A stretch of 64,000 nucleotides of DNA, taken from a candidate division WOR-3 bacterium (GTDB lineage Bacteria > Hydrothermota > Hydrothermia > Hydrothermales > JAJRUZ01). Numbering within the stretch: the first letter of the stretch is position 1; each line of letters starts with the position of its first letter. Below, piece after piece: positions 13,669 through 42,792 of the stretch. The position numbers and the translations under genes were made by a program. The notes beneath the pieces are model-generated. The model was not told the DNA's origin. It made no database searches and saw only the letters and a list, made by a program, of their open reading frames with translations. The stretch lies in contig JBDRZP010000006.1 in NCBI GenBank assembly GCA_039804025.1, positions 1-64,000 of the forward strand, read 5' to 3'.

Positions 13669-14187
13669 TCAATTAGGTATAACCTTTTGTAAAGTAACGG
13701 TTAAAAAAAGTTTAAAATTATGTTCATTCCCGTCTTTTCCGTAAAAGGTTAAAAAGGCATTAATAGGACCTTTAAAATCACCCTTAAGAGGATTGAATAA
13801 ATCTTCCACTTCATCTGTAACTAAATCAAATTCCGTCGTTACTTGATTATTAGATGGAACATAAAAAGAAAAACCCCTTGCATAAGTAGGTAATGTTTCA
13901 ACTATAGAATCTCTTACAGGATCTATACCAGGATAATAGTAATCAACCCTTAATGAATCAATTATTCCATATGTTCCACCATATATTTCTCTAAAACTGA
14001 TGAGCAACTTGGGATATGTCAATGTTATTTCTGTTCCCATAGGAGTTTGCTTAATTTCATAAACTAAAGTTACAACCTGGGGTTCGCACCATACAATAAT
14101 TTCTGCTTTTGGATATAAAGGATTATTAAACTTACAGTTTAAGATAATTATAAAAAACATTAAGATTAATTTTTTCATCATATTCAT
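13669..14187 (-). CDS. Predicted lipoprotein in pilus operon
   Basis: A 172-residue protein with a hydrophobic leader ending IILNC (lipobox, cysteine near residue 18) and a mature beta-rich part. No family recognised. It sits three bases behind the TadE-like gene and before the pilin cluster, so an envelope role in the pilus machine is likely. In-frame ATGs at 14187, 14181 and 14178 cannot be separated by ribosome site. Confidence 0.65.
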   Translation of the reverse strand: MNMMKKLILMFFIIILNCKFNNPLYPKAEIIVWCEPQVVTLVYEIKQTPMGTEITLTYPKLLISFREIYGGTYGIIDSLRVDYYYPGIDPVRDSIVETLPTYARGFSFYVPSNNQVTTEFDLVTDEVEDLFNPLKGDFKGPINAFLTFYGKDGNEHNFKLFLTVTLQKVIPN

Positions 14188-35052: not shown

Positions 35053-35772
35053 TTATTTAATTATTATTTTACCCTTTTTTATTTTTGGTAAGGGAAGATA
35101 GTTGCCATCAGAATCAGTAAGAACTATCTTGAAGGGAATTATATCTGAGACCCCCGTATTATTTTTTGAGAAATAAACATTCAAAACTTTTCCTGAACCT
35201 GAAAAAGGAAGAGCACCCCTCTTTTTTGTAACAGCAAAAAATATAGTATCTTGTTTCACAGTGCTGAAAAATAGATCATCCTGACTCCAGAGAGAGCCCT
35301 TCTTTATGCTATCCACTTTTAAAAAAGAATTTTCAAAAAGAATTCTTCCTGAAATCCCAAAAACTTTATTAATGTTATATATTTTAAGAGAAAGATTAAA
35401 ACTCTTATCAGTTTCAAGATAGATGGGCTCAGGAACTAAAATATAATCAGAAGGCACAGGAGTTTTTACATTTAAACTTGTTTCCTTTACACTTGAACCT
35501 TTTACTTTTATCAAATATTTATAGGAAAAATCAGGGTTTAAAAGAGTATCTGTGAAACTTTTTATTAAACCTCTGAAAGAAAATTTCAAAGGTGAATAAG
35601 GTTCCTGGAATCTCACTATAATTACAGAATCAACATAATCAAAATTTTTGATTTCAAGGGAAAGCTCAACATAAAATGGTTTTAAATTTATAACTTTCGC
35701 TATAACTTCTGGCTCTCCCTTCTTACAGAATAAGAAAAATAAAAAAAAGAAAATTATAATATACTTTTTCAT
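35053..35772 (-). CDS. Lipoprotein with cohesin-like domain
   Basis: A 239-residue protein with a hydrophobic leader ending FLFCKK (lipidated Cys near residue 16). A fibronectin-like region (~20-110) comes first. Then a ~125-residue domain shows cohesin features: strand SLKIYNINKVFGISGRILFENSFLKV, the residue pattern KKGSLWSQ, a strand-rich GSGKVLNVYF, and DSDGN...GKIIIK at the end. Cohesins bind dockerins. The gene directly upstream (4-base overlap, same strand) encodes a subtilase carrying a dockerin, so this lipoprotein probably anchors that protease. The domain call is by pattern only. Confidence 0.68.
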   Translation of the reverse strand: MKKYIIIFFFLFFLFCKKGEPEVIAKVINLKPFYVELSLEIKNFDYVDSVIIVRFQEPYSPLKFSFRGLIKSFTDTLLNPDFSYKYLIKVKGSSVKETSLNVKTPVPSDYILVPEPIYLETDKSFNLSLKIYNINKVFGISGRILFENSFLKVDSIKKGSLWSQDDLFFSTVKQDTIFFAVTKKRGALPFSGSGKVLNVYFSKNNTGVSDIIPFKIVLTDSDGNYLPLPKIKKGKIIIK

Positions 35773-37613
35773 TTTACAATCACCCTTTTTTCCTTATCAA
35801 TTTTACCTTCTTTATATAAAATAAAGAAAATACCTTTATAATTATAAGGTATCATATTATTATAATTTATTTTTCTGCCTGAAATATCAAAAATTTTTAT
35901 TTTCTTAAAGTTACCTTCAATTTTCCTTTCAAAAATAACTATTTTACCATCTGACTCTTCATAAGTAATATTCAAAAGCTCAGATAAAAATTTTTTTATT
36001 TCTTTATTATCACTTGTTCTGTAAAGTAAATAAAAGAAATCCCTTTTTTCTTCAATTTCTGGAATAAAAGTTAAAAAGGAATTTAAAAAATAGCTCAAAG
36101 GATGAGTTAGACCAAAATTTTTACCAATTGTCAAAACATCCTGTTCATTTATTACTCCATCACCGTTACAATCGGCAAAAGTAGCCATTCTTGGAATCCA
36201 CTTCTGAGCAGGCTGAGGGGAAAAATTATCCCCAAGGTTCCTTGCAGGTCCTGTTAAACCGAAGTAAATTCCAAGAGGTAAAACATCCATCTCATTCACA
36301 ATTCCATTTGCATCAGCATCTCCTGGATAAACAATGTATTGAGTTTGAGCAGAAAAGGAAACCGCCTTTTGGGCAGAAACTCTTCCAAATCCATAAATTG
36401 TATCATAACCTTTTTCTCCAAGGTCAATTGCTGTTCCGGTTAAAATTCTCCTTAAATCAAGATTTGTTAGATATTGGTCAAGGGAAAGACAAAGGGCTGC
36501 TATTCCAGCTACATGAGGGGAAGCCATTGATGTTCCTTGAAAGAAGAAGTAAGCAAAGGAATCAACACGAGGTTTTCCCTGTGATTCGTAACATGTATTC
36601 TGTAAAACTCCGTCGGCATAGCCATCATTATTTCTATCAACTTTTACATCCCCTCCTGGTGCTACAATATCAAGACCAAAGCCGTATTGAGAATAATAGG
36701 AAAGGGAATCCCTATAATCTGTTGCTCCTACTGCAATACATTCTTTAAAAGCTGCAGGATAAGAAAGTTTTGAAACAGAACTATTGCCTGCAGCTGCTAT
36801 TACTAAAACACCTTGAGTGTAAGCATTTTTTAAAGCAAGATGTATAACACTCATTCCTGTTGAATCTCCAGGTGGTCCTCCAAGACTCATATTTATAATT
36901 TTTGCACCATTCTGAACAGCAAAGGAAATACCATCTGCAATCTGAGAAGCAGTTCCACCCTGAGGACCTAAAACCTGAGCAAGAATAATGGATACGGAAG
37001 GTGCAATTCCCGCAACTCCTATATTGTTATCAGTAGTCTGTGCTATTGTTCCCAAAACATGTGTTCCATGTGGTGAAGACGGGTCAGGATAAGGGTCATT
37101 ATGGTAAAAATCATAAGCAGCTAAAACACTTAAACCCTGTAAATCAGGTGCTATGTGATAATAACCATCAGAACTTATAACCTCATTTTGTTCATAAGAA
37201 GGAATAGGACCATTTCTGTAAGCAAATCCATCATCAAGCACAGCGAGCCTTATTGAGGAACTCCCAAAACCAAAATTCCAGGCTGTTTCCATTCCTATCT
37301 TTTTAAAGTGCCACTGATAAGGATAATAAGGGTCATTGGGTATATAAAAGGGGGTGAGGATTGCATTTTTTGTTACTTTTTTAACACCTTTTAAATTTTT
37401 CAATTTTTCTATTACATTTTCAATATCTTCCTTTTCTGGATCAAATTTAACAACAAAAAAGGGAAGGTATTTACTCACATAAGAAATTTTAAAACCCTTT
37501 TCAGAAATCAGATTTAAAACTTCAGTTTTTAAATCATCTTCACATATTACCACTACTTCATCTTTTTTATAATTTGAACTTAAAAGGAAAAATAAAAAAA
37601 GAAATATTTTCAT
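35769..37613 (-). CDS. Subtilisin-family (S8) serine protease with dockerin and sorting module
   Basis: A 614-residue secreted protease. Signal peptide, inhibitor-like propeptide (~20-105), S8 catalytic domain with the Asp in AVLDDGFAYRNG, the His in SPHGTHVLGT and the Ser in GTSMASPHVAG. Two dockerin-like calcium repeats follow (GDADANGIVNEMDVLPLGIYFG; DCNGDGVINEQDVLTIGKNFG, about 60 residues apart), then a C-terminal FDISGRK...GIFFILY sorting module. The start at 37613 is chosen because a promoter lies directly upstream; the longer frame would read through that promoter. Likely held at the surface by the cohesin-like lipoprotein encoded next. Confidence 0.9.
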   Translation of the reverse strand: MKIFLFLFFLLSSNYKKDEVVVICEDDLKTEVLNLISEKGFKISYVSKYLPFFVVKFDPEKEDIENVIEKLKNLKGVKKVTKNAILTPFYIPNDPYYPYQWHFKKIGMETAWNFGFGSSSIRLAVLDDGFAYRNGPIPSYEQNEVISSDGYYHIAPDLQGLSVLAAYDFYHNDPYPDPSSPHGTHVLGTIAQTTDNNIGVAGIAPSVSIILAQVLGPQGGTASQIADGISFAVQNGAKIINMSLGGPPGDSTGMSVIHLALKNAYTQGVLVIAAAGNSSVSKLSYPAAFKECIAVGATDYRDSLSYYSQYGFGLDIVAPGGDVKVDRNNDGYADGVLQNTCYESQGKPRVDSFAYFFFQGTSMASPHVAGIAALCLSLDQYLTNLDLRRILTGTAIDLGEKGYDTIYGFGRVSAQKAVSFSAQTQYIVYPGDADANGIVNEMDVLPLGIYFGLTGPARNLGDNFSPQPAQKWIPRMATFADCNGDGVINEQDVLTIGKNFGLTHPLSYFLNSFLTFIPEIEEKRDFFYLLYRTSDNKEIKKFLSELLNITYEESDGKIVIFERKIEGNFKKIKIFDISGRKINYNNMIPYNYKGIFFILYKEGKIDKEKRVIVK

Positions 37614-40923: not shown

Positions 40924-42792
40924 ATGATTACATTTTTGATTTTATTAAATTTTATCTTCCCTGAAGAGAGATATTTTTTAAAGGTTTCAAAAGAACTTAA
41001 CATTTCTTTAAATGAAATATCAATTGAAAAAGAAGGTTTTGAAATTTATGGATATGGTAAATACAGATTAAAAATTTTTGATAATTTAATTTTCTCACCA
41101 TTGAAGATACCTACTTATATAAAAATAATTTCAGAAGGAATACTTGAAAATTGTGACTCCCTATGGTCTTTAACATACTTTGGATTTGCAAGAATCGATG
41201 AAGGAGTAAGGAGAGGATTAATTGAAAGACCACATAAATTTTTAATGGATTCTCTAAAAGAGATTAATCTAAGTAAATATATTAATAACATTTTAAAGCA
41301 AATTGGTATTAAAGAGGAGCTTACAGTTTCTGATGAGAATTTGTTAAAGGGTTTAATATTAATTTTTAAGGGAATAAAAATTTATTTAAATGAAATAGAT
41401 GAATTCACAAAAAATATAGAAAAAGAAGATATAAAGAAAATAATTAAAGGTTTTGAAGAAGAAGGTGAAGATGGTCTTTCAAATCCTCATATTGAAAAAA
41501 TTATTGAAAGTTTAGATTTTAAAATAATCTCAAAACTTTCAAGTGATATAAGTTTTTTCATTCAAAAAGGGCTTTTATTCTTAAAAAATTCAAAATTTGA
41601 AAATACCTTTGAGTTAAATTCAAATTACGGGAAGGTAGTTATAGGGAAAAAAGAAAATGATATTTATAACTCTCCTCCTTACCTTTTAATAATAGATCCT
41701 GATGGAAATGATGAATACCTAAATTCTTCAATTACAGATAAAGATTATCCCTTGAGTATTTTGATTGATTTAAATGGTAAAGATAAATATAGAGGAAGAA
41801 ATGGTGCGGGTTTATGTGGAACTTCAATATTAATTGATTTAAAAGGGGATGACGAATATTCTGGCGAAAAAATTAGTATTGGAACAGGTTTATTTGGATA
41901 CGGAATAGTTTTAGATTTTGAGGGAAATGATAAATATTTTTGTGATGCCTATGGAGAAGGTGCAGGTTTATTTGGAGCAGGTATTTTATGTGATTTAAAA
42001 GGCGATGATTACTATGAAGGGTTTCAGGGTATTCAGGGATTTGGATTTGTTAAGGGATGTGGTTTATTAATCGATAAAGAGGGCAATGATTTTTATATTG
42101 CAAGGGATGATACGGTAAAGTATCCCTCCCCTCAGAGTGATAAACACAATGTATCTCTTGCTCAGGGTATGGGATTTGGAATAAGGGCTGACTTCACTGA
42201 TGGTCACTCCCTTGCAGGAGGTGCAGGTTTTTTGATTGATGGAAATGGTGATGATAAATATTTTTCAGGAGTCTTTGGACAGGGTTGCGGATACTGGATG
42301 GGTTCAGGTTTTTTAATAGATTTTAATGGTAATGATGAATATAATGGTATATGGTATACACAGGGATCTTCAGCCCATTTTGCTATTGGCACACTTTTAG
42401 ATTTAAACGGAAATGATAAATATAAAACAGAGATGAATATGGGTATTGGAGCAGGACATGATTTTTCTCTTGGATATTTAGTGGATTATAAAGGTAATGA
42501 TTTATATGAAGCGCCTAATTTAAGTTTAGGAGCAGGTAATGCAAATGGAATTGGAATATTTATTGATTATGAAGGAATTGATGAGTATAAAACAAAGGGA
42601 GGAATAACACTTGGAAGAGCAAATATTGATACAGGGAAAATACCTTCCTTAAGAAATTATATAAAATGCATAGGAATATTTATAGATGGAAAAGGAAAAG
42701 ATAAATATTATGAAAAATTTGCAGGAAATAAGAAAATATGGAAACATAAGAAAAAAATTGATTCAGAAATAAATATTGGAGTTGATTTCTAG
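40924..42792 (+). CDS. Exported protein with about twelve D-x-x-G-N-D-x-Y repeats
   Basis: The 622 residues start with a short leader. A helical region (~20-240) is followed by about twelve repeats of 23-27 residues (~250-600). Each has the core I-x-I/L-D-x-x-G-N/D-D-x-Y preceded by a glycine-rich G-x-G-x-x-x-G turn. One unit (~405-425) has a longer insert. The regular glycine and paired aspartates suggest a beta-helix or roll stabilised by calcium, as in RTX-like proteins, but the motif differs from the RTX nonapeptide. I do not recognise an enzyme. It follows the oxidase operon from its own leaderless promoter; no C-terminal sorting module is seen. Confidence 0.75.
   Translation: MITFLILLNFIFPEERYFLKVSKELNISLNEISIEKEGFEIYGYGKYRLKIFDNLIFSPLKIPTYIKIISEGILENCDSLWSLTYFGFARIDEGVRRGLIERPHKFLMDSLKEINLSKYINNILKQIGIKEELTVSDENLLKGLILIFKGIKIYLNEIDEFTKNIEKEDIKKIIKGFEEEGEDGLSNPHIEKIIESLDFKIISKLSSDISFFIQKGLLFLKNSKFENTFELNSNYGKVVIGKKENDIYNSPPYLLIIDPDGNDEYLNSSITDKDYPLSILIDLNGKDKYRGRNGAGLCGTSILIDLKGDDEYSGEKISIGTGLFGYGIVLDFEGNDKYFCDAYGEGAGLFGAGILCDLKGDDYYEGFQGIQGFGFVKGCGLLIDKEGNDFYIARDDTVKYPSPQSDKHNVSLAQGMGFGIRADFTDGHSLAGGAGFLIDGNGDDKYFSGVFGQGCGYWMGSGFLIDFNGNDEYNGIWYTQGSSAHFAIGTLLDLNGNDKYKTEMNMGIGAGHDFSLGYLVDYKGNDLYEAPNLSLGAGNANGIGIFIDYEGIDEYKTKGGITLGRANIDTGKIPSLRNYIKCIGIFIDGKGKDKYYEKFAGNKKIWKHKKKIDSEINIGVDF

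Follow-up and report, generated by a model that had tools for sequence, protein, structure and literature searches.

A single-copy cohesin lipoprotein next to a subtilase with a long-linker dockerin and a type IX-like tail: a proposed surface tether in a WOR-3 bacterium

A two-gene unit encoding a cohesin and a dockerin

The window (the whole 64,000-nucleotide stretch of WOR-3 DNA that was analysed) carries an isolated two-gene unit on its minus strand. The upstream gene, P0002 (35769..37613, ATG at 37613), encodes a 614-aa subtilase with a dockerin, as deduced from its ORF and Pfam matches, and with a probable type IX tail; the downstream gene, P0001 (35053..35772), encodes a probable lipoprotein of 239 aa that bears a cohesin according to Pfam, AlphaFold and Foldseek. 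The two adjacent reading frames described by the sequence-only reading were found at their coordinates, and the four bases that they share are 35769-35772. A glycosyltransferase-like gene lies downstream in convergent orientation and an Rrf2-like regulator lies upstream in divergent orientation (both named by inspection). Promoter and terminator scans gave no signal above shuffle level. Elsewhere in the window, positions 40924-42792 encode a 622-aa repeat protein with a G-N-D-x-Y motif.

P0001 begins with a signal peptide and Cys16 (35725..35772, minus strand). Its lipobox, FLF-C, is non-canonical and lipidation of this cysteine is therefore putative: the lipoboxes of P0001 and of its ortholog in the congeneric genome G002 do not have a small residue at -1 (Phe in both), and in the listed relatives outside the genus this residue is G, A, S or N, which makes their lipoboxes canonical or near-canonical. 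Another relaxed lipobox of this WOR-3 genome is found in a predicted lipoprotein encoded at 13669-14187 of the window, which has Asn at -1 (ILN-C). In Bacteroidetes, the sequences K-(D/E)2 or SDDDD after the lipoprotein cysteine are surface export signals (PMC5080379). Many relatives of P0001 carry acidic residues after the cysteine that resemble such a signal, and the corresponding stretch of P0001, CKKGEPE, fits it loosely.

The AlphaFold2 model of P0001 (mean pLDDT 90.3) contains two beta domains after the signal. The N-terminal one (residues about 22-110; 35443..35709, minus strand) is an FN3-like beta-sandwich spacer, as indicated by its AlphaFold strands and by Foldseek matches to FNIII. 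The C-terminal one (residues 112-239; 35056..35439, minus strand) is matched by the Pfam cohesin family PF00963 over residues 122-236 with 25.1 bits, barely above the cut-off of 24.1, and the same family matches 8 of 12 related lipoproteins at E<=0.1. The top PDB match found by Foldseek is 2xdh, a non-cellulosomal cohesin from Archaeoglobus fulgidus (E 8.9e-10, TM 0.79 of target); the best 50 matches are mostly cohesins, which after 2xdh are mostly cellulosomal and include the OlpC cohesin 4dh2. The cohesin profile retrieved only scaffoldin cohesins from the PDB sequences. The single sequence of P0001 had no match among PDB sequences with phmmer, so that profile and fold searches were required, and none in NCBIfam. 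The C-terminal region, which had been read from the letters as a cohesin, thus scores above the Pfam cut-off and adopts a cohesin fold rather than another one in the model; the call of a cohesin lipoprotein holds for the cohesin and not for a canonical lipobox.

P0002 comprises a peptidase S8 catalytic domain (residues 121-410; 36384..37253, minus strand; PF00082, 175.2 bits) with the expected Asp, His and Ser motifs (D127/128, H182, S362). Among NCBIfam models, only subtilase families match it, all below cut-off. The catalytic domain is followed by a long-linker dockerin (residues 426-505; 36099..36338, minus strand), delimited from PF00404, alignments A3, A4 and A6 and the AlphaFold model. 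Dockerin_1 (PF00404) matches residues 430-498 with 25.0 bits, barely above the cut-off of 22.9. Calcium loop 1, DADANGIVNEMD (residues 432-443; 36285..36320, minus strand), and loop 2, DCNGDGVINEQD (residues 481-492; 36138..36173, minus strand), both keep the canonical ligands D-x-D/N-x-D/N-G-x-x-x-x-x-D, as expected from the dockerin-type repeats that had been proposed for this protein. Loop positions 1, 3, 5, 6 and 12 are kept in 19 of 19 sequences, the exceptions being three sequences with Ser at position 5 of loop 2. The distance from the first D of loop 1 to that of loop 2 is 49-52 residues in all 19, which is not the short spacing typical of type I dockerins, and between the loops an Arg is invariant and a Trp mostly conserved (alignment A6). 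Accordingly, the PF00404 match spans 69 residues for 54 profile positions in the P0002 family, versus 45-59 residues in the other dockerins that related genomes encode. The model of this region (pLDDT about 90) shows two loop-helix units, and the linker between them adds a short helix. When searched against the PDB, the dockerin profile retrieved 2y3n from Pseudobacteroides cellulosolvens first and then 8x39 (named serine protease), before calmodulins. A Foldseek search with the C-terminal fragment returned type IX tails and no dockerins, because the tail dominates this small model. The dockerin identity of this region is thus founded on its sequence and its predicted helix pattern.

A helical segment (residues about 517-547; 35973..36065, minus strand; AlphaFold helices, alignment A7) connects the dockerin to a probable type IX secretion C-terminal sorting domain (35772..35939, minus strand). 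TIGR04183 matches this tail weakly (13.5 bits, below cut-off), and its fold resembles, at modest E-values of 0.03-0.05, those of the RgpB CTD (probability 1.00, E 0.046), HBP35 and NucA-GldL. For the type IX-like module reported earlier, the sequence signal is thus weak and the fold matches solved CTDs. Most of the relatives that have a long-linker dockerin exceed the PF18962 or PF13860 cut-off in their tails. The window genome encodes the type IX translocon component SprA (305.9 bits, cut-off 200); its type IX sorting tails that exceed the cut-off number more than 50.

Copy number, relatives and exchange of cargo

The window assembly (2.12 Mb, 95.6% complete) contains one cohesin and one dockerin: P0001 and P0002 are the sole matches to the two families at E<=1, in agreement with the one-to-one pairing that had been supposed. 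For roughly 2,000 genes, the chance that the sole cohesin and the sole dockerin are adjacent is estimated to be of the order of one in a thousand. Within the phylum, the dockerin profile finds 5 of 147 genomes, and a full-length lipoprotein is present in four of these five, the fifth being interrupted by a contig end. In G002, the pair lies in the same gene context (93% and 94% identity). In G003, from the same family (contig JAJRUZ010000050.1, locus L121), the lipoprotein and the subtilase share 43% and 65% identity with those of the window; their neighbourhood differs and the genes again overlap by 4 bp. In G001, from the same genus, the subtilase and its dockerin are present and the contig stops just after the dockerin. 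G072, from another family, carries a lipoprotein relative one base after the gene of a 627-aa papain-type cysteine protease (PF00112, 153 bits), which has a dockerin 51% identical to that of P0002 and a type IX-like tail. The catalytic domains of this protein and of P0002 are unrelated; the dockerin and the lipoprotein are what they have in common.

Other cohesin and dockerin genes were encountered in related genomes. Three genomes from the same class, G009, G013 and G020 (L059-L061, L048, L054, L093-L095), harbour 9 to 25 dockerins, and G013 also has five cohesin matches; these may be cellulosome-like systems in WOR-3 relatives. In G039 (L044, 2-3686), the gene of a 280-aa cohesin lipoprotein directly follows that of a 945-aa protein, which has a type IX-like tail and possibly a degenerate dockerin; this pair may be a diverged relative of P0001-P0002. 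G053 (L041, 9279-13111) has three consecutive same-strand cohesin or dockerin genes that are arranged differently from P0001-P0002, and a type IX-like tail is found at the end of both cohesin proteins. The cohesin proteins of G035, G037, G053 and G094 were not retained as being of the same kind, as their architecture differs and no long-linker dockerin accompanies them.

The dockerin-only alignment A4 was scanned against one genome per species (84,980 species), the neighbouring genes being left out of the selection. Thirty loci were obtained, nearly all from the FCB group (WOR-3, Marinimicrobia, Zixibacteria, Caldithrix, Krumholzibacteria, Electryonea, Ignavibacteria, Kapabacteria and Saprospiraceae); one, L150 from Planctomycetota, is spurious. 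A cohesin lipoprotein gene adjoins the long-linker dockerin gene in 18 of 23 genomes, and exactly one long-linker dockerin is present in 20 of the 23. The lipoprotein ORF generally lies within a few tens of bases downstream (L121, L127, L128, L129, L131, L132, L134, L135, L136, L137 and L140); in L126 it is downstream from a later in-frame start, and in L141 it ends just upstream of the dockerin gene. In G147, the pair is split over two contigs, which overlap exactly over 55 bases at their ends, within a PKD repeat of the lipoprotein. In the Zixibacteria G150 and G154, the lipoprotein gene is directly upstream of a second dockerin gene. In each of these two genomes (L125 and L171, L130 and L172), two long-linker dockerin proteins are accompanied by a single cohesin lipoprotein, which may thus anchor both of them. 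The five genomes that lack adjacency are G148, G157 and G162, in which a cohesin was not found, G163, in which it is away from the dockerin gene, and G001 with its contig end. As the cohesin profile A8 was made from adjacent lipoproteins, unrelated cohesins elsewhere in these other genomes could be missed.

Among the 245 genomes of the phylum Marinimicrobia, 16 carry one copy of the dockerin each, including eight new ones that had not been used in the profiles. In this new set, a lipoprotein is encoded directly downstream in seven of seven readable cases, the contig of G334 ending 116 bases after the dockerin gene. The cohesin of the downstream lipoprotein is strong in G246, G335 and G330 with the custom HMM, and Pfam gives 27.3 bits for G329 (over cut-off) and 21.5 bits for G321 (below cut-off); it is weak in G327 and was not detected in G328. 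No paper in the literature searched names cohesin, dockerin and Marinimicrobia together. In Saprospiraceae, Ignavibacteria and Kapabacteria (L142-L149), a long-linker dockerin and a downstream domain resembling a cohesin are found in one polypeptide. The resemblance is clearest in the Ignavibacteria-like L145-L147 (profile comparison E 1e-4, with a probability of only 57%), and this arrangement is possibly a cis version of the cohesin-dockerin pair.

The dockerin, the sorting tail and the lipoprotein persist while the cargo varies (S8 subtilase, C1 papain, CotH, FG-GAP, laminin-G). CotH kinase and lamin-tail domains are found in L127, L129 and L137, FG-GAP repeats in L131 and L140, laminin-G in L132, and a beta-helix with PKD in L171; further dockerin proteins have no known cargo domain. 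Nearly all end in a Por_Secre_tail or FlgD-type sorting domain. The stretch ahead of the cohesin differs between the lipoproteins: some lack a spacer, some have one FN3 or two, and others carry PKD domains, from one to several. The simple pair that had been read as an anchor for a protease is therefore upheld in its one cohesin, its one dockerin and their adjacency, and not in its specificity for a protease, since other phyla use non-protease cargo; nor is it the oddity of a single genome.

Rough dN/dS estimates between G000 and G002, which come from short sequences, are 0 for the dockerin, 0.135 for the cohesin, 0.21 for the S8 domain, 0.36 for the region after the dockerin and 0.60 for the FN3 spacer. 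The spacer of P0001 is thus under weaker purifying selection than the cohesin. Across 16 pairs, and with the species tree uncorrected, the correlation between cohesin and dockerin distances is r 0.80, that of the dockerin with the tail of its own protein being lower, at r 0.47.

A proposed tether and its alternatives

The best reading, to which we give a probability of about three in four, is that a dedicated one-to-one cohesin-dockerin pair tethers type IX cargo to the outer membrane, because the cohesin and the dockerin are real, single-copy and adjacent, and because the pair is kept in relatives amid different surrounding genes. The following steps can be proposed. The subtilase P0002 would be exported by Sec, and its C-terminal sorting domain would then direct it through the outer membrane by the type IX system; a type IX-like tail and SprA are both observed. 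Its long-linker dockerin, loaded with calcium through the conserved ligands seen in its loops, would then plug into the C-terminal domain of P0001, which has the fold of a cohesin. The lipid of P0001 would fix this protein to the outer membrane with the cohesin facing outward, and the spacer (FN3 in P0001; PKD, two FN3 or none elsewhere) would set its reach. Both modules are present in one copy and adjoin each other across phyla; each dockerin would have a single cohesin as its partner, and the domain carried as cargo would be exchangeable between lineages. P0002 would presumably cut a substrate, and nutrition or the processing of surface proteins are candidate roles for this protease.

The recurrence of the pair with other cargo in several little-known phyla suggests that it is a simple means by which secreted proteins are attached to the cell surface. 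We lean, with little more than even confidence, towards a wider proposal: the cassette of a single-copy cohesin lipoprotein and a long-linker dockerin may be a general non-covalent anchor for type IX cargo across the FCB superphylum, with a catalytic or binding domain that is swapped freely, and by a route separate from A-LPS.

The orientation of the lipoprotein leaves room for a different role. If P0001 faced the periplasm, its cohesin would hold the folded cargo, or present it to the type IX translocon, ahead of secretion, and would not anchor anything outside. This is consistent with the sorting tail of the cargo and with the weak surface export signal of P0001, whose outward side we infer. 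However, dozens of other proteins of the genome have type IX tails while there is one cohesin only, which indicates that type IX secretion in general is independent of the cohesin, and the spacers, which are long and vary in type (FN3, PKD repeats), fit a protein that reaches out from the surface; we consider a periplasmic role unlikely. It is far less probable that P0001 serves the protease specifically, as its chaperone, its inhibitor or a factor in its maturation. The 4-bp overlap suggests translational coupling and protease-inhibitor pairs are often adjacent, but a like lipoprotein is found beside papain, CotH, FG-GAP and laminin-G cargo, the dockerin being the constant part.

It is slightly less credible still that the dockerin of P0002 binds other scaffold proteins in a larger, cellulosome-like complex, even though such a system was reported in Cloacimonadota (PMC8542988) and dockerins number 9-25 in some genomes from the same class, one of which also has several cohesins. 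Instead of the multi-cohesin scaffoldin and several dockerin enzymes of a cellulosome, the window genome has a single cohesin and a single dockerin, and 20 of the 23 carriers have one long-linker dockerin. Finally, that P0001 and P0002 are mere neighbours without functional contact, the calcium repeats only stabilising the protease, is barely plausible: such repeats are found in many secreted proteases and the Pfam scores are near the cut-offs, but the adjacency recurs in several phyla with different cargo and surroundings.

Under the tether reading, P0001-P0002 is a minimal and repeatedly conserved two-gene case, whose architecture (type IX cargo, dockerin and lipid-anchored cohesin) suggests its purpose. 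The role of a non-cellulosomal cohesin-dockerin interaction becomes directly testable with two small soluble domains, and the long-linker pairs offer new private coupling pairs. The tether model also proposes how uncultured FCB bacteria may retain secreted proteins on the cell.

Comparison with known cohesin-dockerin systems and anchors

Cohesins and dockerins are widespread outside cellulosomes, where their role is usually unclear (PMC9012536). Strong and specific binding was reported for a dockerin-cohesin pair of Archaeoglobus fulgidus, ORF2375/ORF2376 (PMC9705933). Like P0001-P0002, these are consecutively numbered ORFs from a non-cellulosomal organism, and 2xdh is the best fold match of P0001. 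Unlike P0001-P0002, the pair is archaeal and has no type IX tail, and a loop spacing of 49-52 residues marks the dockerins of the P0002 family. To our knowledge, it is not known as a lipoprotein anchoring exchangeable cargo. In the literature searched, mainly from outside subscription journals, no private cohesin lipoprotein that serves type IX cargo was found to be described.

In cellulosomes, S8 proteases, cysteine peptidases and CotH proteins also carry dockerins (PMC12484212). The double dockerin dDoc_0689 of an S8 protease from Clostridium thermocellum prefers the cell-bound ScaD; like P0002, this protein is a dockerin subtilase proposed to be fastened to the surface, outside the main enzyme-scaffoldin complex (PMC12484212). 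In contrast to P0002, it belongs to a many-cohesin cellulosome in a Gram-positive host. We know of no lipoprotein and no adjacent private cohesin in that case. In Ruminococcus flavefaciens, ScaE binds a cysteine peptidase (PMC12484212). ScaE and the OlpA/OlpC proteins of C. thermocellum resemble P0001 in that a single surface-anchored cohesin receives a dockerin protein. They are anchored by an SLH domain or by sortase and serve many dockerins.

Among the cellulosome-like proteins of Candidatus Stygibacter (Cloacimonadota) are S8 and C25 peptidases with dockerins, along with a scaffoldin whose C-terminal domain is type IX-like (PMC8542988). These dockerin peptidases and the type IX-like domain recall P0002; its scaffoldin is large and has many cohesins, whereas P0001 is a one-cohesin lipoprotein. 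In Porphyromonas, type IX cargo proteins carry a C-terminal sorting domain and are kept on the surface via A-LPS, to which they are joined covalently by the PorU sortase. Compared to this covalent attachment, the link proposed for P0002 is a non-covalent one between cohesin and dockerin, which would act in addition to it or instead of it.
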